From the NCBI RefSeq assembly GCF_000801955.1, contig NZ_JSZO01000006.1, forward strand, positions 62,001 to 126,000: a stretch of DNA of 64,000 nucleotides, read 5' to 3'. The DNA comes from Ralstonia sp. A12 (GTDB lineage Bacteria; Pseudomonadota; Gammaproteobacteria; Burkholderiales; Burkholderiaceae). The first letter of the stretch is position 1; each line of letters opens with the position of its first letter. Below are positions 33,404 to 62,958 of this stretch, one piece after another. Below the pieces are notes generated by a model, which searched no databases, was not told the DNA's origin, and saw only the letters and a list, made by a program, of their open reading frames with translations. The position numbers and the translations under genes are program-made.

Positions 33404-33480
<77 letters not shown>

Positions 33481-33508: not shown

Positions 33509-33586
<78 letters not shown>

Positions 33587-45042: not shown

Positions 45043-45163
45043 CATCCATAAGCCATCGCGATGTCGCCTGGAAGGCCCGACGCAGACCGTCATGCTTTGT
45101 ACATCTGGGCGATCTAAATTTTGATTTTGATTCCCCCCGTCCACCTTGCATTGGAGAGACAAC

Positions 45164-45742
45164 ATGCTGACTCAGGAACAGATCGCTGCGGCGCACAAGG
45201 CCAACCTGGAAACCTTCTTTGGCCTGACCAACAAGGCTTTTGAAGGCGTCGAGAAACTGGTCGAACTGAACCTGCAAGTCGTCAAGGCTACCCTGGCCGA
45301 AAACGTCGAGCACGCCAAGAAGGCCCTGACCGCCAAAGACGCGCAAGAACTGCTGTCGGTGCAAACCGCTGCCGTTCAGCCGCTGGCTGAAAAGGTTCTG
45401 GCTTACAGCCGCCACCTGTACGAAATCGCTTCGGACACGCAAACCGAGTTCAGCAAGGCCGCTGAATCGCAAATCGCTGAAAACAGCCGCAAGCTGCAAG
45501 CGCTGGTCGACAACGTGTCGAAGAACGCCCCGGCTGGTTCGGAATCGGCTGTCGCCTTGGTGAAGTCGGCTCTGTCGGCTGCCAACAACGCCTACGACTC
45601 GGTGCAGAAGGCCACCAAGCAAGCTGTGGAACTGGCTGAAAGCAACTTCCACGCTGCTGCCAACGCTGCCAGCAAGGCAACCGCCCAGGCTTCGGCTCAA
45701 GCGCGTGCTGCCACCAGCAAGAAGACCACGACCGCGGCCTAA
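45164..45742 (+). CDS. phaP: Phasin (PHA granule protein)
   Basis: 192-residue amphipathic alpha-helical phasin that coats PHB granules. The N-terminus [35 protein letters not shown] is the family signature. The C-terminal 50 residues are Ala/Lys/Thr-rich ([19 protein letters not shown]). The start ATG 45164 has GGAGAG 5 nt upstream. Strongly Lys/Glu/Ala biased, highly expressed-looking codon use. Repression by PhaR is expected (see promoter entries). Confidence 0.96.
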
Positions 45743-45974: not shown

Positions 45975-46072
45975 GTGTGCACGCAAACCGTCACGGCGCT
46001 TCAAACTGCGAACTTTTGTGGGCGACCGGCGCTCCATCCTATATTGCGGATTACCACCCCAACCCTACGCCG

Positions 46073-46633
46073 ATGTCCCGCGAATCCCTGGCCAAACGTG
46101 GCCTGATCTTCCTGGCCGCACTGATCCTGCTGTTCGAAGAATGGATCTGGAATGCCATGCTGCGGGTCACTGCCCGACTGGCAACGCACCCATGGGTGCA
46201 GGCTGCAGAACGACGCCTGGCTGCGCTTGAGCCGATCGAAGCCCTCTGTGCGTTCGTCCTGCCGATGCTGGCGCTACTGCCATTCAAGCTGGCGGCTGTC
46301 TACGTGCTCACGCGTGGCAAATTTATCGCCGGGACGCTCGTGCTGATACTGGCGAAGGCTGTCAGTACGGCGTTAGGTGCCCGCATCTACGTAGTGGTTC
46401 GGCCGCAGTTGCATACGATCGACTGGTATTCCCGCTGGGAAGTCGCTTTCCTGGCCTGGAAGCAGCGTATGGTTGCTGCCTTGCGCGCCAGCCCGACCTG
46501 GCAGGCGCTGCAGGCACGCATCGTCAGTTGGCGAACCCACCGGCGCGGGCTGCTACGCCTAGCTTGGCGCCGGCTGACCGCAGCGCTGCGCCTGCTGCGC
46601 CGGAACCGTCGCCCCGCCCAACCGCGTCACTGA
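46073..46633 (+). CDS. Membrane protein of unknown function
   Basis: 186-residue protein. Two or three hydrophobic segments (GLIFLAALILLFEEWIW; ALCAFVLPMLALLPFKLAAVYVL; AGTLVLILAKAVSTALGARIYVVV) precede a strongly basic, Arg-rich C-terminal tail of about 60 residues (WRTHRRGLLRLAWRR...), probably cytoplasmic. The ATG at 46073 (MSRESLAKRG) is preferred over the frame to 45977. Ends with its own terminator. Function unknown. Confidence 0.75.
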   Translation: MSRESLAKRGLIFLAALILLFEEWIWNAMLRVTARLATHPWVQAAERRLAALEPIEALCAFVLPMLALLPFKLAAVYVLTRGKFIAGTLVLILAKAVSTALGARIYVVVRPQLHTIDWYSRWEVAFLAWKQRMVAALRASPTWQALQARIVSWRTHRRGLLRLAWRRLTAALRLLRRNRRPAQPRH

Positions 46634-46644
46634 GGCAACGCATC

Positions 46645-46684
46645 AAAGAAGAAGGGCCGCCCAATCGAGCGGCCCTTCTTCTTT
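46645..46684. terminator. Bidirectional terminator before lpdA
   Basis: A perfect 16-bp stem (AAAGAAGAAGGGCCGC and its complement) with an 8-nt loop between converging genes. Confidence 0.9.
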
Positions 46685-46733
46685 GCCAGCCAGGTTTCAG
46701 GGTCTCTCTGAAAACACGGCGGTTAATTGCATC

Positions 46734-48509
46734 TCAGCGCTTGCGAGCTGGCGGCACATCCGTGCAGACACCCTCATAGATTTCCGCAGCCATGCCCACC
46801 GACTCACCCAGCGTCGGGTGCGGGTGGATGGTCTTGCCGATATCCACCGCGTCGGCGCCCATCTCGATGGCCAGACAGATCTCGCTGATGAGGTCGCCCG
46901 CATGCGTGCCGACGATACCGCCGCCGATGATGCGATGCGTTTCCTCGTCGAAGATGACCTTGGTGAAGCCCTCGTCGCGGCCATTCGCGATCGCGCGGCC
47001 CGAAGCGGCCCACGGGAACACGCCCTTGCCGTACTTGATGCCCTGTGCCTTGCACTGGTCTTCGGTCAGGCCGGCCCAGGCCACTTCCGGATCGGTAAAG
47101 GCCACCGATGGAATCTGCTTGGCATCGAAGTATGCCTTCTCGCCGTGCGCAGCTTCGGCAGCCACATGACCTTCATGGACCGCCTTGTGCGCCAGCATCG
47201 GCTGGCCAACGATGTCGCCGATCGCGTAGATGTGCGACACGTTGGTGCGCTGTTGCTTGTCCACGTCGATGAAGCCGCGGTCCGTCACAGCCACGCCGGC
47301 CTTCTCGGCGCCGATGCGCTTGCCGTTCGGGCTGCGGCCCACGGCCACCAGCACCATGTCGTAGCGCTGCGGCTCGGCCGGTGCAGCTTCGCCTTCGAAC
47401 TTCACATAGATACCGTCCGGCTTGGCCTCGACACCAACCGTCTTGGTCTTGAGCATGACCTTGTCGAAGCGGCCCTTGTTCATCTTGTCCCACACCTTGA
47501 CGAGGTCACGGTCGGCGCCCTGCATCAGGCCGTCGAGCATTTCCACCACGTCGATGCGCGCGCCCAGCGTGCTGTACACCGTGGCCATTTCCAGGCCGAT
47601 GATGCCGCCGCCGATGACCAGCATCTTGGCCGGCACTTCATGCAGCTCCAGCGCGCCGGTCGAATCGACGATGCGCGGGTCTTCCGGGATGAACGGCAGT
47701 TTCACGGCCTCGCTGCCCGCAGCGATGATCGCCTTGGCGAAGCGGATGACCTTCTTCTCGCCGGTCACAGCCTTGCCGGCGCCGTCCGTCACCTGCACTT
47801 CCAGGTGGTTCGGATCGAGGAACGTACCAACGCCGCGCACGACCTGCACCTTGCGTGCCTTGGCCATGCCAGCCAGGCCGCCGGTCAGCTTGCCGATCAC
47901 GGATTCCTTGTGCTTGCGCAGTTGGTTGATATCAACCTTCGGCTCGCTGTAGACGATGCCGTGCGCGGCCATCGCCTTGACTTCTTCCATCACGGCGGCC
48001 GTGTGCAGCAGCGCCTTCGACGGGATACAACCCACGTTCAGGCAGACACCGCCCAGCGTGGAGAAGCGCTCGACCAGCACGGTGTTCATGCCAAGATCTG
48101 CGCTGCGGAAGGCGGCCGAATATCCGCCCGGGCCAGAGCCGAGGACGAGCATGTCGCACTCGATATCTGCGCTGCCGGCATGCTTGGCCGCTTGCGGTGC
48201 GGGCGCCGCTGCTGCCGGCACTGCAGCAGGTGCTGCGGCCGGTGCCTGCGCAGGTGCCGGAGCTGCGGCTGCGCCGGCTTCCGCCGTGGCAATCACCGCT
48301 CCCTTCGCAACCTTGTCGCCCACCTTGACCTTCACATCGACGATCTTGCCGGCCACGTCCGACGGCACTTCCATGCTGGCCTTGTCGGATTCCAGCACGA
48401 TCAGCGACTGCTCAGGCGCCACGGTATCGCCCGCCTTGATCAGCACTTCGATGACTTCCACTGCGTCGAAATCGCCGATGTCCGGCACCTTGATTTCCAC
48501 CACGCTCAT
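46734..48509 (-). CDS. lpdA: Dihydrolipoamide dehydrogenase with N-terminal lipoyl domain
   Basis: E3 component of pyruvate dehydrogenase; reoxidises dihydrolipoamide with NAD+. 591 residues. An extra lipoyl domain comes first (residues 1-80, lipoyl Lys43 in ESDKASMEV), then an Ala/Pro linker (to about 115) and the FAD/NAD core: [11 protein letters not shown], redox disulfide C156/C161 in [13 protein letters not shown], and the His-Glu of HPHPTLGE near the C-terminus. The start ATG 48509 has AGGAG upstream. The lipoyl extension is typical of betaproteobacterial PDH E3. Last gene of the PDH operon. Confidence 0.96.
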
Positions 48510-48565
48510 TCCTGACTCCTTGTTCTTGTCGTCGGCACCCGGCATCGCCTTGGCCGCCGACGCTT

Positions 48566-49138
48566 TCAATCTTGCAGACGTATCGTGTGCACTTCGATCG
48601 GGCCGCCCGAACTCTTGTCGAATTCCACGCCCGCAGCCACGCCGACCTGCGCAACATCCGCCGCCGTCTTGCCCGGCATGTCGAACACCGTAGACATGGC
48701 CCCCAGCGCAAAATTGCGCCCCGAGCCGATGCCCCAGAAGCGGTCGAACGAAAACACTTCGCGGTACGAATAAACGCCGTAGATGCCAGTTGCGTTGGCG
48801 ATCAGGCAAGTGATCTGAGACGACTCGTAAGGGTCATCGTCGTCTTCCTTGGTGTTGACGAAATACTCGTCTTTGAGCTTTTCGTGCACCTTGAGGAAGG
48901 TCCGGAAGACGTCGTCGCGCGAGCCAAGCCGGCATTCATCCGCCAAGCCGGTCAGCAGGCTGCGCATGACCGGGAAGTGGGCCGTCGTACCCGCCAGGGC
49001 GATCAGCGACTCGCCCACCTGGAAGATCTTCTGGTTTTGCTCGTAGCCGCGCGCTAGGCGCGTATCGCCGAACGTCACCAGCGAATCGGCTGCGATTGCC
49101 ACTTCGCCGTCTTTCTTGACCACCACGCACGTCGTCAT
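48566..49138 (-). CDS. Proteasome-type Ntn hydrolase (BPH family)
   Basis: 190-residue Ntn-hydrolase resembling HslV and proteasome beta subunits. After Met removal the N-terminal Thr is the nucleophile ([18 protein letters not shown]), the Asp17 equivalent is in AIAADS, and Lys36 in NQKIFQV aligns with the catalytic Lys33 after a three-residue insertion. It also has [11 protein letters not shown] and [11 protein letters not shown], typical of the fold. This fits the betaproteobacterial proteasome homologue BPH, reported as a double-ring complex of unknown physiology. No unfoldase ATPase is adjacent. It lies between aceF and lpdA, same strand. Confidence 0.85.
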
Positions 49139-49243
49139 GTCGTCCTCGCGAAAAATCCGCCGGCCGCTGCAAACCCGGCTGTAACCCCATCCAGGCCGGC
49201 ACGCACAGGCCCAAAGCCAGATGCGTGCCGCACCCGTGCGGGC

Positions 49244-50914
49244 TTACAGGCTGACGCGGCGGAAGTCCGCCAGCACGCTGGCCAGATACGCGTTGAAGCG
49301 GGCAGCTTCTGCGCCATCGATCACGCGGTGATCGTACGACAGCGACAGCGGCAGCGTCAGGCGCGGCACGAACTGCTTACCGTCCCATACCGGCTTCTGG
49401 TAACCACGCGACAGACCCAGGATGGCCACTTCCGGCGCGTTGATGATCGGCGTGAAGTTCGTGCCGCCGATGCCGCCCAGCGACGAGATCGAGAAGCAAC
49501 CGCCTTGCATTTGGTCCGGCTTCAGCTTGCCTTCGCGGGCGGCCTTCGACAGGTCGGCCATTTCCTTGGCGATGTCGACCAGGCCCTTCTTGTCCGCATC
49601 GCGGATCACCGGCACCACCAGCCCGTTGGGCGTATCAGCCGCAAAGCCGATGTGGAAGTACTGTTTGAAGACCAGGTTGTCGCCGTCCAGGCTGGCGTTG
49701 AACGTCGGGAATTTCTTCAGCGCGCCAACAACCGCCTTGATCACGAACGCCAGCATCGTGAACTTCACGCCGGCCTTTTCGTGGTCCTTGTTCATCTGCA
49801 CGCGGAAAGCTTCCAGCTCGGTGATGTCCGCTTCGTCATTGTTGGTGACGTGCGGGATCATGACCCAGTTGCGGTGCAGGTTCGCGCCCGAGATCTTCTT
49901 GATGCGCGACAGCGGCTTCGGATCGACCGGACCAAACTTGGTGAAGTCCACCTTCGGCCACGGCAGCAGGTTCAGCTCGCCGCCGCCAGACGGTGCGGCA
50001 GCAGCCTTGCCCGGCGCTGCGGCTTGGCCGGTCATCACGCCCTTGACGTAGCGCTGCACGTCTTCCTGCGTGATACGGTTCTTCGGACCCGTGCCGCCAA
50101 CGAGGCTCACGTTCACGCCCAGATCACGCGCGTACTTGCGCACCGACGGGCTGGCGTGGGCGGCCTTGCCCACCGTACCGACGGTGTCGGCGGTGTAGGT
50201 TGCAGGCGCAGCAGCCGGGGCGGCAGCGGGAGTAGCGGCAGGTGCCGGGCTCGGTGCAGCGGCAGCCGGTGCGGGCGCCGGAGCTTGTGCGGGGGCCGGT
50301 GCTGCAGCCGCGCCGCCAGCACCATCCAGCACGACGATCAGCGTGCCTTGCGACACGGCATCGCCCACCTTCACGCGGATTTCCTTGACGGTACCGGCAG
50401 CCGGCGACGGCACATCCATCGTGGCCTTGTCCGATTCGAGCGTGATCAGCGACTGCTCGGCTTCCACCTTGTCGCCCACCTTCACGCTGATCTCGATGAC
50501 CGGCACGTCCGTGTAGTCGCCGATGTCCGGGACCTTCACTTCAACCGTGCCGCCACCTGCAGCTGCCGGCGCGGGTGCCGGAGCTTGTGCAGCAGGCGCG
50601 GGTGCCGGCGCAGCAGCGGCCGGAGCCGGTGCGGGCGCAGCTTGAGCGGCAGGCGCCGGAGCTGCAGCGGCGCCCTGCTCTTCGAGCAACAGCACCAGCG
50701 AGCCTTCCGACACGCTATCGCCCACCTTGATCTTCACTTCCTTGACGACGCCGCTCTTGGGCGACGGCACGTCCATGGTCGCCTTGTCCGACTCCAGCGT
50801 GACCAGCGAATCCTCGGCGTTGACGGTATCGCCCGCCTTGACCAGCACTTCGATCACCGGGACGTCTTTGTAGTCGCCGATGTCCGGCACCTTGATTTCT
50901 ACGACTTGACTCAT
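49244..50914 (-). CDS. aceF: Dihydrolipoamide acetyltransferase (PDH E2)
   Basis: 556-residue E2 core of pyruvate dehydrogenase that transfers acetyl from lipoamide to CoA. Two lipoyl domains (Lys44 and Lys163, both in ESDKATMDV) are separated by long Ala/Pro linkers. Next come the peripheral subunit-binding domain (SPSVRKYARDLGVNVSLV), and the catalytic domain with SYDHRVIDG (His near 529). The start ATG 50914 (MSQVVEIK) has GGAGA upstream. Lies 153 nt after aceE. Confidence 0.97.
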   Translation of the reverse strand: MSQVVEIKVPDIGDYKDVPVIEVLVKAGDTVNAEDSLVTLESDKATMDVPSPKSGVVKEVKIKVGDSVSEGSLVLLLEEQGAAAAPAPAAQAAPAPAPAAAAPAPAPAAQAPAPAPAAAGGGTVEVKVPDIGDYTDVPVIEISVKVGDKVEAEQSLITLESDKATMDVPSPAAGTVKEIRVKVGDAVSQGTLIVVLDGAGGAAAAPAPAQAPAPAPAAAAPSPAPAATPAAAPAAAPATYTADTVGTVGKAAHASPSVRKYARDLGVNVSLVGGTGPKNRITQEDVQRYVKGVMTGQAAAPGKAAAAPSGGGELNLLPWPKVDFTKFGPVDPKPLSRIKKISGANLHRNWVMIPHVTNNDEADITELEAFRVQMNKDHEKAGVKFTMLAFVIKAVVGALKKFPTFNASLDGDNLVFKQYFHIGFAADTPNGLVVPVIRDADKKGLVDIAKEMADLSKAAREGKLKPDQMQGGCFSISSLGGIGGTNFTPIINAPEVAILGLSRGYQKPVWDGKQFVPRLTLPLSLSYDHRVIDGAEAARFNAYLASVLADFRRVSL

Positions 50915-51067
50915 TCTTCTGTCTCCAGAGGGTCTGGCGGCGAGCGCATCCGGCGGCGGACACAAGCTGCCCCGCAGGCTACCGCATCGTGCAGGCAAAT
51001 GCACTACGCGAAAAGTCTGTCGGGGGCGGTGCCCGGCCGGACGCAACCTGCGCGCCCGGCGGCTCCG

Positions 51068-53758
51068 TTATACGGTCATCGGGTTGGGCTTGTTCGGATC
51101 GAGGTTGTACTTCTTCAGTGCCTCGGCCACCTTTTCGCGCGGCAACACGCCTTCGTCGGCGAGCGCCTTGAGCGACGCGACCGTCACCCAGTAGCGGTCC
51201 ACTTCGAAGAAGTGGCGCAGCTTCTCGCGGGTATCCGAGCGGCCGAAGCCGTCGGTGCCCAGCACCACGTAGCGACGCGGCACGAAGGCGCGGATCTGCT
51301 CGGCGAAAGTACGGACGTAGTCGGTCGATGCGATGACCGGGCCGCGTGCGTTCTTGAGCAGCTTCTCGACGTGCGACTCGCGTTGCGGTTCGGTCGGGTT
51401 GAGCAGGTTCCAGCGGGCGACGGCATTACCTTCGCGGGCCAGCTCGGTAAAGCTTGGGGCACCCCACAGGTCGGACTCAACGCCCCAATCCTTCTTGAGC
51501 AGCTCAGCCGCGGCAATCACCTCACGGAAGATCGTGCCCGAACCCAGCAGTTGCACGCGCGGTGCGTTGCTGTTCTCGACGCCCTTCTTGAACTGGTACA
51601 TCCCCTTGATGATGTCGCCCTCGACACCCGCCGGCATTTCCGGGTGCTCGTAGTTCTCGTTCATCACCGTCAGGTAGTAGTAGACGTCTTCCTGCTCGAC
51701 ATACATGCGGCGCAGGCCGTCTTGCATCACCACCGCCAGTTCGTACTGGAAGGTCGGGTCATACGAGATGCAGTTCGGGATGGCAGCGTGGTACACGTGC
51801 GAGTGGCCGTCTTCGTGCTGCAGCCCTTCGCCGTTCAGCGTCGTGCGGCCAGCGGTGCCGCCCAGCAGGAAGCCGCGCGAGCGCATGTCGCCAGCAGCCC
51901 AGCAGAGGTCGCCGATACGCTGGATGCCGAACATCGAGTAATAGATGTAGAACGGGATCATCGCCACGCCATGCGTCGAATACGACGTGGCGGCCGCGAT
52001 CCAGTCGCACATGGCGCCGGCTTCGTTGATGCCTTCCTGCAGCACCTGACCTGTCTGCGATTCCTTGTAGAACATCAGCTGGTCGTGATCCTGCGGCACG
52101 TACTTCTGGCCTTCCTGGTTCCAGATACCGACCTGGCGGAACAGACCTTCCATACCGAACGTGCGGGACTCATCCGGCACAATGGGCACGACGTGCTTAC
52201 CGACGTTCTTGTCCTTCAGCAGGATGTTCAGGATCCGCACGAAGGCCATCGTGGTGGACACTTCGCGGCCTTCGCCGGTGGCCTTCAGCAGCGCGTCAAA
52301 CGCGGCCAGTGCCGGAATCTGCAGCGCGTCGGCCTTCTGGCGACGTGCCGGCAGGTAGCCGCCCAGGTCCATGCGGGCCTTGCGCATGTACTCGAGTTCC
52401 TTCGAGCCCTCTTCGAACTTGACGTACGGAACGTGCTCGAGCTGGTCGTCGGCAACCGGGATGTTGAAGCGATCGCGCAGCTTGCGGATGGCGTCCACCG
52501 GCATCTTCTTCTGCTGGTGGGCGATGTTCATCGCTTCGCCGGCTTCGCCCATGCCATAGCCCTTGATGGTCTTGGCGAGGATGACGGTCGGCTGACCCTT
52601 GTGGTTCGTGGCCGATTGGAACGCCGCGAAGATCTTGTGCGGATCATGGCCGCCGCGGTTCAGCGCCCAGATGTCGTCGTCGGACCAGTCGGCCACCATG
52701 GCCTTGAGTTCCGGCGTGTTGAAGAAGAACTCGCGCACATAGGCGCCGCTCTTCGACTTGAAGGTCTGATACTCGCCGTCGACGCATTCCATCATGCGGC
52801 TCATCAGCAGGCCCTTGGTGTCGCGGGCGAGCAGTTGATCCCAGCGGCTACCCCAGATGACCTTGATGACGTTCCAGCCGGCGCCGCGGAATTCGCTTTC
52901 CAGCTCTTGAATGATCTTGCCGTTGCCGCGCACCGGACCGTCCAGGCGTTGCAAGTTGCAGTTGATCACGAAGACGAGGTTGTCCAGCTTTTCACGGCCG
53001 GCCATGCCGATCGCGCCCAGCGATTCCGGCTCGTCGGTTTCACCGTCGCCCAGGAAGGCCCAGACCTTGCGGTTTTCCCAGTTCTGGATCAGGCCGCGGC
53101 TGGCCAGGTACTTGGTGAAGCGCGCCTGGTAGATCGCCATGATCGGGCCCAGGCCCATCGATACCGTCGGGAATTGCCAGAAATCCGGCATCAGCCACGG
53201 GTGCGGATACGACGAGATGCCCTGGCCGTCCACCTCCTGGCGGAAGCTGTCGAGCTGGTTTTCGGTCAGGCGGCCCAGCAGGAACGCGCGCGAATACACG
53301 CCCGGCGCCGAGTGGCCCTGCACGAAGACCATATCGCCGCCGTGCTTGTCCGACGGGGCGTGCCAGAAGTGGTTGTAGCCAACGTCATACAGCGTGGCTG
53401 CGGACGCGAACGACGAGATATGGCCACCGACGTTGGTGTCCTTGTTCGCACGCAGCACCATCGCCATGGCGTTCCAGCGCGTGTACGAACGGATGCGGTG
53501 CTCGATTTCCTGGTTGCCGGGAATGCGGTCCTGGTTCTCAACCGGAATCGTGTTGATGTAGGGGGTTTCTGCGTGCAGCGGCGAGGTCACGCCGTTGATG
53601 CGCGCGTACTCGATCTGCTTATCGAGGAGGAACGCCGCGCGTTGCGGGCCTTCCGCGCCGATGACGCCTTGTAGCGCCTCCAGCCATTCCTTGGTTTCCT
53701 GGGGATCGACGTCGCTGGCGCTCGTGGCGCCCAGGACTTGTTCTGGTACGGCCGACAT
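51068..53758 (-). CDS. aceE: Pyruvate dehydrogenase E1 (homodimeric)
   Basis: 896-residue thiamine diphosphate enzyme that decarboxylates pyruvate. Full length for the E. coli-type single-chain E1. Visible features: the His-rich N-terminal segment (NVGGHISSFASAATLYDVG), the ThDP motif GDGETDEPES...NCNLQRLDGPVRGNG, and C-terminal VLGTDGFGRSDTR. The ATG 53758 has AAGGAG 7 nt upstream. First gene of the operon; the divergent gene is a PAS kinase. Confidence 0.98.
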   Translation of the reverse strand: MSAVPEQVLGATSASDVDPQETKEWLEALQGVIGAEGPQRAAFLLDKQIEYARINGVTSPLHAETPYINTIPVENQDRIPGNQEIEHRIRSYTRWNAMAMVLRANKDTNVGGHISSFASAATLYDVGYNHFWHAPSDKHGGDMVFVQGHSAPGVYSRAFLLGRLTENQLDSFRQEVDGQGISSYPHPWLMPDFWQFPTVSMGLGPIMAIYQARFTKYLASRGLIQNWENRKVWAFLGDGETDEPESLGAIGMAGREKLDNLVFVINCNLQRLDGPVRGNGKIIQELESEFRGAGWNVIKVIWGSRWDQLLARDTKGLLMSRMMECVDGEYQTFKSKSGAYVREFFFNTPELKAMVADWSDDDIWALNRGGHDPHKIFAAFQSATNHKGQPTVILAKTIKGYGMGEAGEAMNIAHQQKKMPVDAIRKLRDRFNIPVADDQLEHVPYVKFEEGSKELEYMRKARMDLGGYLPARRQKADALQIPALAAFDALLKATGEGREVSTTMAFVRILNILLKDKNVGKHVVPIVPDESRTFGMEGLFRQVGIWNQEGQKYVPQDHDQLMFYKESQTGQVLQEGINEAGAMCDWIAAATSYSTHGVAMIPFYIYYSMFGIQRIGDLCWAAGDMRSRGFLLGGTAGRTTLNGEGLQHEDGHSHVYHAAIPNCISYDPTFQYELAVVMQDGLRRMYVEQEDVYYYLTVMNENYEHPEMPAGVEGDIIKGMYQFKKGVENSNAPRVQLLGSGTIFREVIAAAELLKKDWGVESDLWGAPSFTELAREGNAVARWNLLNPTEPQRESHVEKLLKNARGPVIASTDYVRTFAEQIRAFVPRRYVVLGTDGFGRSDTREKLRHFFEVDRYWVTVASLKALADEGVLPREKVAEALKKYNLDPNKPNPMTV

Positions 53759-53828
53759 GGCGGTCTCCTTGGTAGCAGTAACGGTAGTTGCGTCTCGTTG
53801 GATTGGGGGTACCCCAACTTTTGCGCTG

Positions 53829-53858
53829 ATTCTATGGGCACCCGCAAATGCAGCACAA
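53829..53858 (-). promoter_or_regulatory. Candidate aceE promoter
   Basis: On the minus strand TTGTGC (53858-53853), 18-nt spacer, TAGAAT (53834-53829). The leader would be about 65 nt. An AT-rich stretch with TATAAT at 53889-53894 (plus strand) could serve the divergent kinase gene. Confidence 0.45.
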
Positions 53859-54040
53859 GTGGAATTTTCAAATTGCGATATGGTTTTTTATAATGCGGAA
53901 TATTGCGGCGATGCAAAACAAATCACTTTTGACGCTGCAGCGCAGCATTTCCCTGCTGGCGAAATGTGCGTCACCAAGCGGTTTCCCCAAGCGACCCGCA
54001 GGTTAATTGCCGTTACACTTGGTTTTGCGCAGTTGCACAG

Positions 54041-56641
54041 ATGTCCACACCTTTACCTCCGCAGAATTCCGGCGTTCGTCCGCCCATCATGCTTTCCCCC
54101 CGCCACGCCCAGCAGGACCCGGCCCGGTCGTCTGACCCCTCCGAATTGTCCGAGCCGCCGATGCCTGCCGCGCCCTCGTCTATACATACAGCGGTGTCCG
54201 CACCCGAGCTGCCACCCGATGAGGGCGTGCGCGCTAACATGCCGCGCCGCTTGTGGATGATGCGCCTGGGTCGGTTGTGGACGACCAACTGGTTCATGTT
54301 CATTCCGCTGGTGGCAATCGTTTTGTTTGCCGGCGCGATGATCTTCATCCTGTATCAGCTGCACGCCACCGAGGTGCAGCAGCAGCGTGACGCTCTCTAC
54401 CGCGATGCCGCCTGGGCCGAGCAGAAGGTGCGTCTGTCCTTGCAGAGCAATCAGGATCAGGTGGCTGCGCTGGCCCGCGACATTGGCGCCGCGCAGCTCG
54501 ACCCGAGTGCCTATCGTGATGCCGCGCGCCAACTGCTGCGCGAGAACCCCGAGCTGGTCTTCATCAACTGGCTGGATGCCACCCGCCGCCCGCGCTGGGC
54601 CTTCCCGGCCAGCTCTGAATTTGTCACCCGCGTGCGCGAAACACGTGAGCACCCGCTCGAGGCTGAGATCCAGTCAGCCTATGACGCCGCACGTGAAACG
54701 CAGCGCGCCGTCTATTCCCGCCCGATCCAGAACGAGCGCGGCGAGAGCTTCATGCTCATGGAAGTGCCGATCGTGCGCGACAACGAGTTCCTGGGCACGG
54801 TGGGCGCCATGTACTCGGTCACCGGCATCCTCACGCAACTGCTGCCGGGCGAACTGACTGACCGCTACCGCTTCTCGCTGGTCGACAAAAACAATGTGAT
54901 CCGGGCCAGCACGTCGCTGCGGCCGGTGCCCAAGGCGGCGGCGTCGTACGAGGTGCTGCTGGACCCGCCGGGGCATTCGCTATCATTGCGGGCCGAGGCG
55001 TATCCGGCGCCGTCCAATCTGCCCAACAACATGTTGATGTGGCTGGTGGCTGGCCTGTCGTGCTTCGTGATCTGGAGCTTGTGGAGCGTCTGGCGCCACA
55101 CCAGCCGACGCTCTGAAGCGCAACGCGCGCTACTGGCGGAAACGTCATTCCGCCGCGCCATGGAAAACTCCATGGTGATCGGCATGCGCGCGCTCGATCT
55201 CAACGGCCGCATCACCTACGTCAATCCCGCGTTCTGCCGCATGATCGGCTGGACAGAGGCAGAACTGGTTGGCCGCATGCCGCCCTTCCCGTACTGGCCG
55301 CCCAATGAAATCGGCGAGATGCAGAAGCACATCGAGCTGACCCTGCGCGGCAAGGCCCCTGCCAACGGCATGGAGCTGCGCATGATGCGCCGTGACGGCA
55401 CGAGCTTCTATGCGCGGATGTACGTCTCGCCGCTGATCGACGCGCGCGGCCGGCACACAGGCTGGATGAGTTCGATCACCGACATCACCGAACCCAAGCG
55501 CGCGCGCGAAGACCTGGCTGCGGCACATGACCGCTTCACGACGGTGCTGGAAAGCTTGGACGCAGCCGTGTCCGTGCTCTCCACCGACAAGGCCGAGCTG
55601 CTGTTCGCCAACCGCTACTACCGCCAGCTCTTCGGCTGGGAAGCGTTCGGCCACCTGCAACTGTCCGGCCAGGATGTCAACACGGAAGACGTGTCCAGCG
55701 ATGCGCTCGACATGGTGGATGGCTATGCTGGCCTGCCCGCCTCCGAACTGACACCGCACGCCGCCGACGCACGCGAGATCTACGTGCCTGCGATGCAGAA
55801 ATGGTTCGAAGTGCGCCGCCGCTACATCCAATGGGTGGACGGTCACCTCGCGCAGATGCAGATCGCCACGGACATCACCGTGCGCAAGGCCGCCGAAGAA
55901 ATGACGCGCCAGCACGAAGAGCGCCTGCAGTTCACCAGCCGCCTGACGACCATGGGCGAGATGGCTTCGTCCCTGGCGCACGAGTTGAACCAGCCGCTGG
56001 CGGCCATCAACAACTACTGCATGGGCGCGGTCGGCCGCCTGAAGAGCGGTCGCAGCACCGCGGAAGAGCTGATTCCCGTGCTGGAGAAAACCTCCGCCCA
56101 AGCAGTACGCGCCGGCACCATCATTCAGCGCATCCGGGGCTTCGTGAAACGCAGCCAGCCGCAGCGGCGGGAATCCGACCTGCGGGACATCGTGGCAGAT
56201 GCCGTCGGCCTGGCCGAGCTGGAAGCCACGCGGCGCGGCATCACCATCCTCACGCGGCTGCCGGCCGAGTTGCCGCACCTGTATGTCGACCCGGTGCTGA
56301 TCGAGCAGGTGCTGGTCAACCTGCTCAAGAACGCCGCCGAAGCCATGGCTGCCCACCCGCGCCTGCGCGCCGCGAGTGTCCTGCGCCTGCACGCCAACCT
56401 GATCGACGACCCGGAAAACTCCGTGCTGATCGAGGTCATCGACCAGGGCCCGGGCGTGGACGACAGCACCAAGGAGCGCCTGTTCGAGCCCTTCTTCAGC
56501 ACCAAGTCCGACGGCATGGGCATGGGCCTGAACATCTGCCGCTCCATCATAGAATCCCACCTCGGCAGGCTCTGGGTAGAAAACAATGCCGATGGCATCG
56601 GCTGTACGTTTAAAATCATCCTGCCGCTGAATCCGCTGTAA
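54041..56641 (+). CDS. PAS-domain sensor histidine kinase (FixL-like)
   Basis: Membrane histidine kinase of about 866 residues. Order: basic N-terminus, TM1 (WFMFIPLVAIVLFAGAMIFILY), periplasmic sensor of about 200 residues, TM2 (MLMWLVAGLSCFVIWSLWSVW), two PAS domains (first near TSFRRAMENSMVIGM), then HisKA with the phospho-His 647 (SLAHELNQPLAAINNY) and HATPase with NLLKNAAEA and GMGMGLNICRS. The start is uncertain: ATG 54041 or 54089; no strong ribosome site. Followed 44 nt later by its likely response regulator. The signal is unknown; divergence from aceE suggests a link to carbon or redox state. Confidence 0.9.
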   Translation: MSTPLPPQNSGVRPPIMLSPRHAQQDPARSSDPSELSEPPMPAAPSSIHTAVSAPELPPDEGVRANMPRRLWMMRLGRLWTTNWFMFIPLVAIVLFAGAMIFILYQLHATEVQQQRDALYRDAAWAEQKVRLSLQSNQDQVAALARDIGAAQLDPSAYRDAARQLLRENPELVFINWLDATRRPRWAFPASSEFVTRVRETREHPLEAEIQSAYDAARETQRAVYSRPIQNERGESFMLMEVPIVRDNEFLGTVGAMYSVTGILTQLLPGELTDRYRFSLVDKNNVIRASTSLRPVPKAAASYEVLLDPPGHSLSLRAEAYPAPSNLPNNMLMWLVAGLSCFVIWSLWSVWRHTSRRSEAQRALLAETSFRRAMENSMVIGMRALDLNGRITYVNPAFCRMIGWTEAELVGRMPPFPYWPPNEIGEMQKHIELTLRGKAPANGMELRMMRRDGTSFYARMYVSPLIDARGRHTGWMSSITDITEPKRAREDLAAAHDRFTTVLESLDAAVSVLSTDKAELLFANRYYRQLFGWEAFGHLQLSGQDVNTEDVSSDALDMVDGYAGLPASELTPHAADAREIYVPAMQKWFEVRRRYIQWVDGHLAQMQIATDITVRKAAEEMTRQHEERLQFTSRLTTMGEMASSLAHELNQPLAAINNYCMGAVGRLKSGRSTAEELIPVLEKTSAQAVRAGTIIQRIRGFVKRSQPQRRESDLRDIVADAVGLAELEATRRGITILTRLPAELPHLYVDPVLIEQVLVNLLKNAAEAMAAHPRLRAASVLRLHANLIDDPENSVLIEVIDQGPGVDDSTKERLFEPFFSTKSDGMGMGLNICRSIIESHLGRLWVENNADGIGCTFKIILPLNPL

Positions 56642-56685
56642 ATCGTTGTTAAAACAAACGTAGAACGTAGACCGAGGACTCCTCC

Positions 56686-57321
56686 ATGAGCACAACGCCC
56701 GCAGCAGTTGCTCCGCGCAACGAAACCGTGTTCGTCGTCGACGACGATGAAGCCATGCGTGACTCATTGACGTGGCTGCTCGAAGGCAACGGCTACACCG
56801 TGCGCACCTACCGCAGCGCTGAAGAGTTCCTCGTAGACGACAAGCGCACCGAAGGCGTCGGCTGCCTGATCCTCGACGTGCGCATGCAAGGCATGAGCGG
56901 CCCCGAGCTGCAGGACCGCCTCATGGCCGAGAACAGCCGCCTGCCGATCGTCTTCGTGACCGGCCACGGCGATGTACCGATGGCGGTGTCGACCATGAAG
57001 AAAGGCGCGGTCGACTTCATCGAGAAGCCCTTTGACGAATCCGAACTGCGTGAACTGGTCGAGCGCATGCTCAGCAAGGCCCGCTCGGAAGATTCCGTCG
57101 CCCGCGAGCAGAAGGCCGCCAAGGACCTGCTCGGCCGCCTGACCACGCGCGAGCAGCAGGTGCTCGAGCGCATCGTTGCCGGCCGCCTGAACAAGCAGAT
57201 CGCCGACGACCTGGGCATTTCCATCAAGACGGTGGAAGCCCACCGCGCCAACATCATGGAAAAGCTCAACGTGAACACGGTGGCGGACCTGCTGCGACTG
57301 GCGCTGTCAAAGAACGCTTGA
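56686..57321 (+). CDS. FixJ/LuxR-type response regulator
   Basis: 211-residue two-component regulator. The receiver domain has the acidic pair in VVDDDEAMRDS, phospho-acceptor D64 in LILDVRMQG, Thr in VTGHGDV and Lys in EKPFDE. A LuxR/FixJ helix-turn-helix follows (LTTREQQVLERIVAGRLNKQIADDLGISIKTVEAHR). The neighbouring kinase is the natural partner. Target genes are not evident. Confidence 0.95.
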   Translation: MSTTPAAVAPRNETVFVVDDDEAMRDSLTWLLEGNGYTVRTYRSAEEFLVDDKRTEGVGCLILDVRMQGMSGPELQDRLMAENSRLPIVFVTGHGDVPMAVSTMKKGAVDFIEKPFDESELRELVERMLSKARSEDSVAREQKAAKDLLGRLTTREQQVLERIVAGRLNKQIADDLGISIKTVEAHRANIMEKLNVNTVADLLRLALSKNA

Positions 57322-62535: not shown

Positions 62536-62958
62536 AATGCCTCCTGATTATTCTTGCCTACTCTTTTCTCGGTTTTCGGCAACCCCGATTAAAAAGGACA
62601 AAATAATTGCAATCCGAAGGAAAATAACCCGCCTGGGATAACCGATCTAAGCTGGCATGCGATGCACAACCTTCCAGTTCGTGGCACTGGATATGCAGCT
62701 AGCGTCTCTGCAGCGCTCCCTGCACAACCCCACACCCCTGCGGAGATTTAGGACTCCGCGCTTGATTGATTTTCGCTTTTCGCCAACCTTCGTGAAACCC
62801 GATTCACTTGGCATCGACGCGCAGTGCGTTATCTCACTGTGACGTGGATGCTATGTCGGCCACTACCTTGCTGCAAATTACTCATATTCATAGCAGTCAT
62901 AATCAGAACGACGAGATGAGATCGATAGCAAACAAGGATTAATCCTTATATCCCATAG
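62536..62958. other. AT-rich gap upstream of the PixA/AidA gene
   Basis: 423 nt of lower-GC DNA than its surroundings. The only sizable frame (62657-62842, 61 codons) has no ribosome site or recognisable motif. It likely holds the promoter of the PixA/AidA gene, which I cannot pin down. Confidence 0.45.

Follow-up and report, generated by a model that had tools for sequence, protein, structure and literature searches.

A gene for a betaproteobacterial proteasome homologue (BPH), a relative of the proteasome whose structures have been solved but for which no substrate is known, lies inside the pyruvate dehydrogenase (PDH) operon of Ralstonia sp. A12, and the locus raises the question of how far this position can serve as a clue to the function of the protein. 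A 1994 paper on the PDH cluster of Alcaligenes eutrophus reportedly noted, between pdhB and pdhL, an ORF3 of unknown nature, which would be the BPH gene. In the Results and discussion and the Conclusions of their report, Fuchs et al. present the structures of Cm-BPH and Td-BPH, tetradecameric double rings in solution, descent from HslV, an acidic pore loop, and three prevailing genomic contexts, i.e., arginine biosynthesis genes, the PDC operon (in Cupriavidus metallidurans), and Hsp33 (PMC5777263). The BPH family and, for C. metallidurans, its PDH-operon setting are already published, and the new part presented here is a survey of BPH contexts across genomes. Among the papers listed that postdate PMC5777263, only PMC8665760 refers to BPH more than a few times, and BPH locus tags, partly guessed, matched PMC5777263 only; the available text of PMC5666114 mentions BPH twice, without genomic context.

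The BPH gene and its operon

In the window (the whole stretch of 64,000 nucleotides analysed here), aceE, aceF, the BPH gene, and lpdA are arranged in that order on the minus strand, with a two-component system upstream on the plus strand:

53966-56641, plus: PAS histidine kinase, divergent from aceE (Pfam)
56686-57321, plus: LuxR-type response regulator, following the histidine kinase (Pfam)
51068..53758, minus: aceE, PDH E1, 896 amino acids (TIGR00759, 1591 bits)
49244..50914, minus: aceF, PDH E2, 556 amino acids from the conserved start (TIGR01348, 759 bits)
49139..49243, minus: aceF-BPH spacer, 105 nt, with an AGGA-type ribosome-binding site upstream of the start codon of BPH (read by eye)
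48566..49138, minus: BPH, proteasome-fold N-terminal-nucleophile hydrolase, 190 amino acids (ORF from ATG, PF00227, PDB match)
48510..48565, minus: BPH-lpdA spacer, 56 nt, with an AAGGAG-type ribosome-binding site before lpdA (read by eye)
46734..48509, minus: lpdA, PDH E3 with N-terminal lipoyl domain, 591 amino acids (TIGR01350, 474 bits; PF00364)

The earlier note had placed the ORF between aceF and lpdA on one strand, which it did not name, with gaps of 105 and 56 nt; reading of the sequence confirms the position and both gaps and assigns the gene to the minus strand. The opposite reading of 48566..49138 was discarded, as it contains a stop codon. AceF starts at the conserved MSQVVEIKV and has two lipoyl domains, seen as two Biotin_lipoyl stretches in Pfam (the Pfam and NCBIfam scans were run on 49244-50968). 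Pfam likewise assigns PDH E1, E2, and E3 domains to the three neighbours of BPH in the operon. Both flanks of the BPH gene are PDH genes, and Pfam and NCBIfam detected no gene for an AAA+ unfoldase beside it. On the far side of lpdA, and convergent to it, a phasin gene (45146-45742, plus; Pfam) and an ORF of 218 amino acids without Pfam match (45977-46633, plus) are located. An Rfam search of the whole window returned two tandem tRNA genes (33404-33477 and 33509-33582, plus) and a DUF805b cis-regulatory RNA (62555-62589, minus), and no element inside the PDH operon.

In a scan of 46500-54400, neither a sigma-70-like promoter nor a terminator-like site was detected on the minus strand (totals for the region: two promoter-like sites vs 1.0 in shuffles and five terminator-like sites vs 6.7). 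This pattern fits a single PDH-BPH transcript, and BPH is likely to be co-expressed with PDH. The corresponding gene of R. eutropha H16 is presumably A1376, judging by its position. An RNA-seq study of that strain reports high induction of pdhA1, pdhB, and pdhL during the growth phase, and the tag A1376 is absent from its main text (PMC3734047). Fuchs et al. describe BPH as constitutively expressed (PMC5777263). Since accSR/bphPQ-like genes near ace genes are described as redox or catabolite-repression regulators (PMC6456745), the two-component system at 53966..57321 (plus), possibly a BphPQ/AccSR-like pair, may control the PDH-BPH operon.

Family identity, active site, and selection

The window protein matches the Pfam family Proteasome (PF00227) with an E-value of 1e-10. 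Among PDB chains its best match is 5ovu (323 bits, E 2.9e-96, residues 2-189), followed by 5ovs/5ovt (121 bits), and no further chain was found at E<=0.001; all of these are BPHs, so that the proposed family assignment holds. Identity as HslV was rejected (27.4 bits vs a cut-off of 157.75 for TIGR03692 and 28.3 vs 137 for NF003964), and so was identity as a 20S proteasome beta subunit (33.4 bits vs the archaeal beta cut-off of 224, TIGR03634). The protein begins with MTTCVVV, i.e., threonine directly follows the start methionine and there is no propeptide. With numbering from the residue after methionine, Thr1, Asp17, and Lys36 are all present, as the earlier note had read from the sequence, and an alignment of the 75 BPHs of the survey described below bears out their conservation (Thr1 in 74, Asp17 and Lys36 in all 75). 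Gly49, Gly137, and Gly139 occur in 75/75 and Ser138 in 70/75, and the window protein has all four; it thus carries the full set expected of a BPH (Asp17, Lys36/37, Ser138/139, and the oxyanion glycine). It also carries a long acidic pore loop at residues 96-106; the net charge of residues 88-106 is -2 to -7 in all 75 proteins. The single BPH without Thr1, encoded at locus L010 of the same order, begins with Met-Ser-Thr and hence has Ser1, a residue which the Results and discussion and Conclusions of PMC5777263 mention only for BPHs outside Betaproteobacteria.

Two positions separate the proteins by context: position 21 is threonine or serine and position 53 histidine in all 16 PDH-linked BPHs, vs lysine and phenylalanine, respectively, in all 19 argG-linked ones. 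By proteasome numbering, both positions presumably lie near the substrate. The BPH of Thiobacillus denitrificans (5ovs, 5ovt), which shares Thr1, Asp17, and the acidic loop region with the PDH-linked window protein, is itself argG-linked (PMC5777263). The BPH of C. metallidurans (Rmet_1198, 5ovu) has the same catalytic residues and lies in the same operon with the three PDC genes (PMC5777263), and differs from the window protein in nothing essential beyond genus. Among the matches listed, identity to the window protein amounts to 75-81% for named Cupriavidus BPHs and to 95-98% for its closest named relatives, which are Ralstonia-like. In NCBI, at least 17 of the 120 homologues listed are named "MFS transporter" (e.g., P0002, P0005, P0007, P0008, P0010, and P0011), apparently an annotation error that has spread between records, and further ones are named HslV.

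HslV resembles the window BPH in its proteasome fold, an N-terminal Thr-Thr, and Asp17, whereas the window BPH differs from it in the long acidic pore loop and in having no adjoining ATPase gene; the same genome has a separate HslV-like gene adjoining hslU. Anbu belongs to the same proteasome superfamily. A protein of 301 amino acids elsewhere in the genome, with an adjoining transglutaminase gene (L003, G000:C1:702368-705907), is putatively Anbu-like; it is longer than BPH and has other neighbours. With the HslV-like gene, the Anbu-like gene, and BPH, the genome therefore seems to hold three proteasome relatives.

Median pairwise omega values among Ralstonia-like sequences were 0.025 for BPH (45 pairs from ten sequences), 0.034 for aceE (21 pairs), 0.054 for aceF (36 pairs), and 0.084 for lpdA (45 pairs), and among Cupriavidus-like sequences 0.087, 0.107, 0.159, and 0.145, respectively; only pairs of untruncated genes with dS of 0.05-2.5 were used, so that the pair sets differ between genes, and both groups hold a few records under other genus names. 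With a median of 0.025 the BPH ORF is no chance reading frame. Since its omega is at or below that of the PDH genes, BPH is held as strictly as PDH where present, and such strong purifying selection shows that the gene is not in decay where it is kept.

Genomic contexts and history of the aceF-lpdA slot

A protein search covered 399 genomes of the order, among them the one that contains the window. BPH was detected in 152 of these genomes, which represent 71 of 159 genera; genomes without a match at E<=1e-8 were counted as BPH-negative. From the BPH-bearing genomes, 74 loci were fetched and combined with the window to give 75 loci, which represent all 71 BPH-bearing genera, four of them twice. 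Sixteen loci are PDH-linked, 23 lie near hsp33 (Hsp33 within 3.5 kb of BPH), 19 near argG, and 17 elsewhere; in three of the latter (L045, L076, and L077) BPH is about 700 bases or less from a contig end. According to tblastn with the PDH proteins of the window, aceF is always upstream and lpdA always downstream of the PDH-linked BPHs on the same strand, aceE is also present on the fetched stretch in 14 of the 16, and none of the other 59 loci has a match to aceE, aceF, or lpdA. In the seven families with PDH-linked BPHs, all 16 BPHs are of this type. The non-PDH contexts were defined by unbiased clustering of the neighbouring ORFs followed by Pfam analysis of one member of each of ten clusters, among which no AAA+ protein was found.

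Within the argG-linked loci, a YajQ (DUF520) gene occurs downstream in 15 of 19 and adjoins BPH in 14 (L008, L010, L013, L017, L019, L024, L025, L040, L044, L046, L058, L066, L068, and L075); this neighbour goes unnamed in the Results and discussion and Conclusions of PMC5777263. A Ppnp gene lies between argG and BPH in six of the 19.

Among named relatives, the best 80 of 587, a set weighted towards close relatives (Ralstonia, Cupriavidus, Pandoraea, Collimonas, Noviherbaspirillum, and others), show aceF-BPH-lpdA in 79 cases; the 80th locus has lpdA and is cut by a contig end on its upstream side. Spacer lengths could be measured in 74 loci including the window and range from 59 to 178 nt between aceF and BPH and from -4 to 433 nt between BPH and lpdA.

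The location of BPH genes in relatives is not random, since context follows lineage on a quick tree of the 75 BPHs for which HslV served as the outgroup. The PDH-linked BPHs form one side of a branch with an SH-aLRT value of 94, just below the star level of the tool; the PDH-linked label requires one change on the tree vs 14.7 in shuffles, and all context labels together require eight vs 42.5.

The seven families comprise 77 genomes (family totals were counted by eye), 16 of them with BPH; 69 have an aceE match and 53 of these 69 have no BPH, the eight genomes without aceE match, all in family f20, being uninformative on PDH operons without BPH. The region following aceE was fetched for 40 of the 53, which were chosen and not drawn at random (f1 7/10, f21 6/10, f8 8/10, f10 9/11, f20 3/3, f49 7/8, f3 0/1). 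No match to BPH at E<=0.01 was found between aceF and lpdA in these 40 loci; the two genes are on one strand in all 40 and less than 1.2 kb apart in 39. The gaps between them, extrapolated from the matches with three negative values (-4, -337, and -340) as a result, were estimated at 9-40 nt in 25 of 39 loci and at 2351 nt in one.

On an LpdA tree of 55 loci (the 16 BPH-bearing and 39 of the 40 BPH-lacking ones), the presence of BPH needs eight changes, at least seven of them by starred branches, a count which is blind to gain vs loss. Distances between BPHs correlate with those of aceE, aceF, and lpdA (Mantel r 0.61, 0.53, and 0.50; n = 14, 16, and 16, two of the 16 loci having no aceE on the stretch; p<=0.0003). 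The LpdA proteins of the BPH-bearing f8 genomes L009 and L043 group with f3, apart from other f8 proteins, which suggests that the lpdA beside BPH was replaced or transferred in these two; the history of the PDH-BPH block was therefore not wholly vertical. Given a single BPH branch and a single slot, the simplest interpretation is that BPH was cleanly lost from the aceF-lpdA slot several times; that it was inserted anew at this position more than once is a possible alternative. The placement of BPH in the PDH operon suggests an old, lineage-specific arrangement more than a dedicated PDH helper.

Possible roles of BPH

Beyond the family identity, active-site residues, conservation, and gene order described above, we consider it fairly probable that BPH is an ATP-independent, substrate-restricted protease which shares the PDH operon by descent and is not dedicated to PDH. 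Two heptameric rings would form a barrel without an ATPase cap, removal of the start methionine would expose Thr1, which Lys36 and Asp17 would activate, and this active site would be enclosed in a cavity that bears an acidic pore loop. In print, the barrel, the removal of methionine, and the binding of inhibitors at Thr1 (epoxomicin and MG132 modify the active site) have been shown for relatives (PMC5777263). Through such a barrel, BPH might, independently of ATP, degrade or trim a small range of proteins that are unfolded or flexible; because no peptidase activity was seen in vitro with standard peptides or casein (PMC5777263), it is by inference that we speak of a protease. BPH would have entered the aceF-lpdA slot once, in an ancestor of the seven families, and would later have been lost cleanly several times. 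Where kept, it would be made together with PDH, so that its level would track the PDH operon, the PDH subunits not being dedicated substrates.

The earlier note had instead suggested a possible role in PDH quality control or acetyl-CoA-linked stress. As a quality-control protease, BPH would remove oxidised or orphan E1, E2, or E3 or trim the Ala/Pro-rich linkers of E2 and E3, with the operon position setting the stoichiometry. The strict aceF-BPH-lpdA position (16/16 loci of the seven families and 79/80 named loci, the best 80 of 587) and the strong purifying selection on BPH speak for this proposal. It has already been partly tested in print, however, with a negative outcome: in the results reported by Fuchs et al., pull-downs with C. 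metallidurans BPH recovered neither a partner nor a PDC subunit nor HslU, and BPH left the carbonylation patterns unchanged (PMC5777263). Moreover, 59 of 75 BPH loci lie elsewhere, 53 of the 69 aceE-bearing genomes in the same families have no BPH match, and in 39 of the 40 genomes of this kind that were sampled aceF and lpdA nevertheless remain on one strand with less than 1.2 kb between them. The proposal accounts neither for the other contexts of BPH nor for the many PDH operons that have no BPH, and we regard it as unlikely. A narrower version, in which PDH-linked BPH where kept would be a growth-coupled, ATP-independent protease specialised for parts of the PDH complex such as lipoyl-domain linkers, clade-specific and set off from the argG-linked subtype by, e.g., positions 21 and 53, strikes us as distinctly improbable.

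The split of positions 21 and 53 by clade, both presumably near the substrate, would also suit a highly specific peptidase or ligase that acts, connectase-like, on one or a few sequences and is not a general protease. Such an enzyme could be inert to standard peptides and casein and yet have a free and reactive Thr1 (PMC5777263), and connectase, a member of the same superfamily, is described as a specific ligase (PMC8665760); BPH forms a closed barrel, whereas connectase is monomeric, and we hold this possibility to be quite unlikely. Least probable to us is a HslU- or Clp-dependent peptidase that borrows a housekeeping unfoldase. HslU scored above the cut-off in 290 of 399 genomes, and an HslU-strength match is present in 136 of the 152 BPH-bearing ones (table read by eye), the window's own included and one of the matches being partial; against this, 16 of the 152 have no such match (two of them are less than 80% complete), HslU was missing from the pull-downs, and the residues of the HslU interface are not conserved in BPH as reported in PMC5777263. 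According to PMC8665760, as far as its text was available, no unfoldase is known for BPH. A further idea, that BPH stands in for HslU-dependent proteolysis, was dropped because most BPH-bearing genomes also have HslU.

For the biology of the family, the survey shows that the published operon contexts of BPH are states locked to lineage on the BPH tree. It also shows that, at one fixed slot, some related genomes have BPH and others lack it. Guilt-by-association with PDH is thereby weakened as a clue to function, and BPH-bearing and BPH-lacking relatives provide a natural comparison for finding the substrates of BPH.
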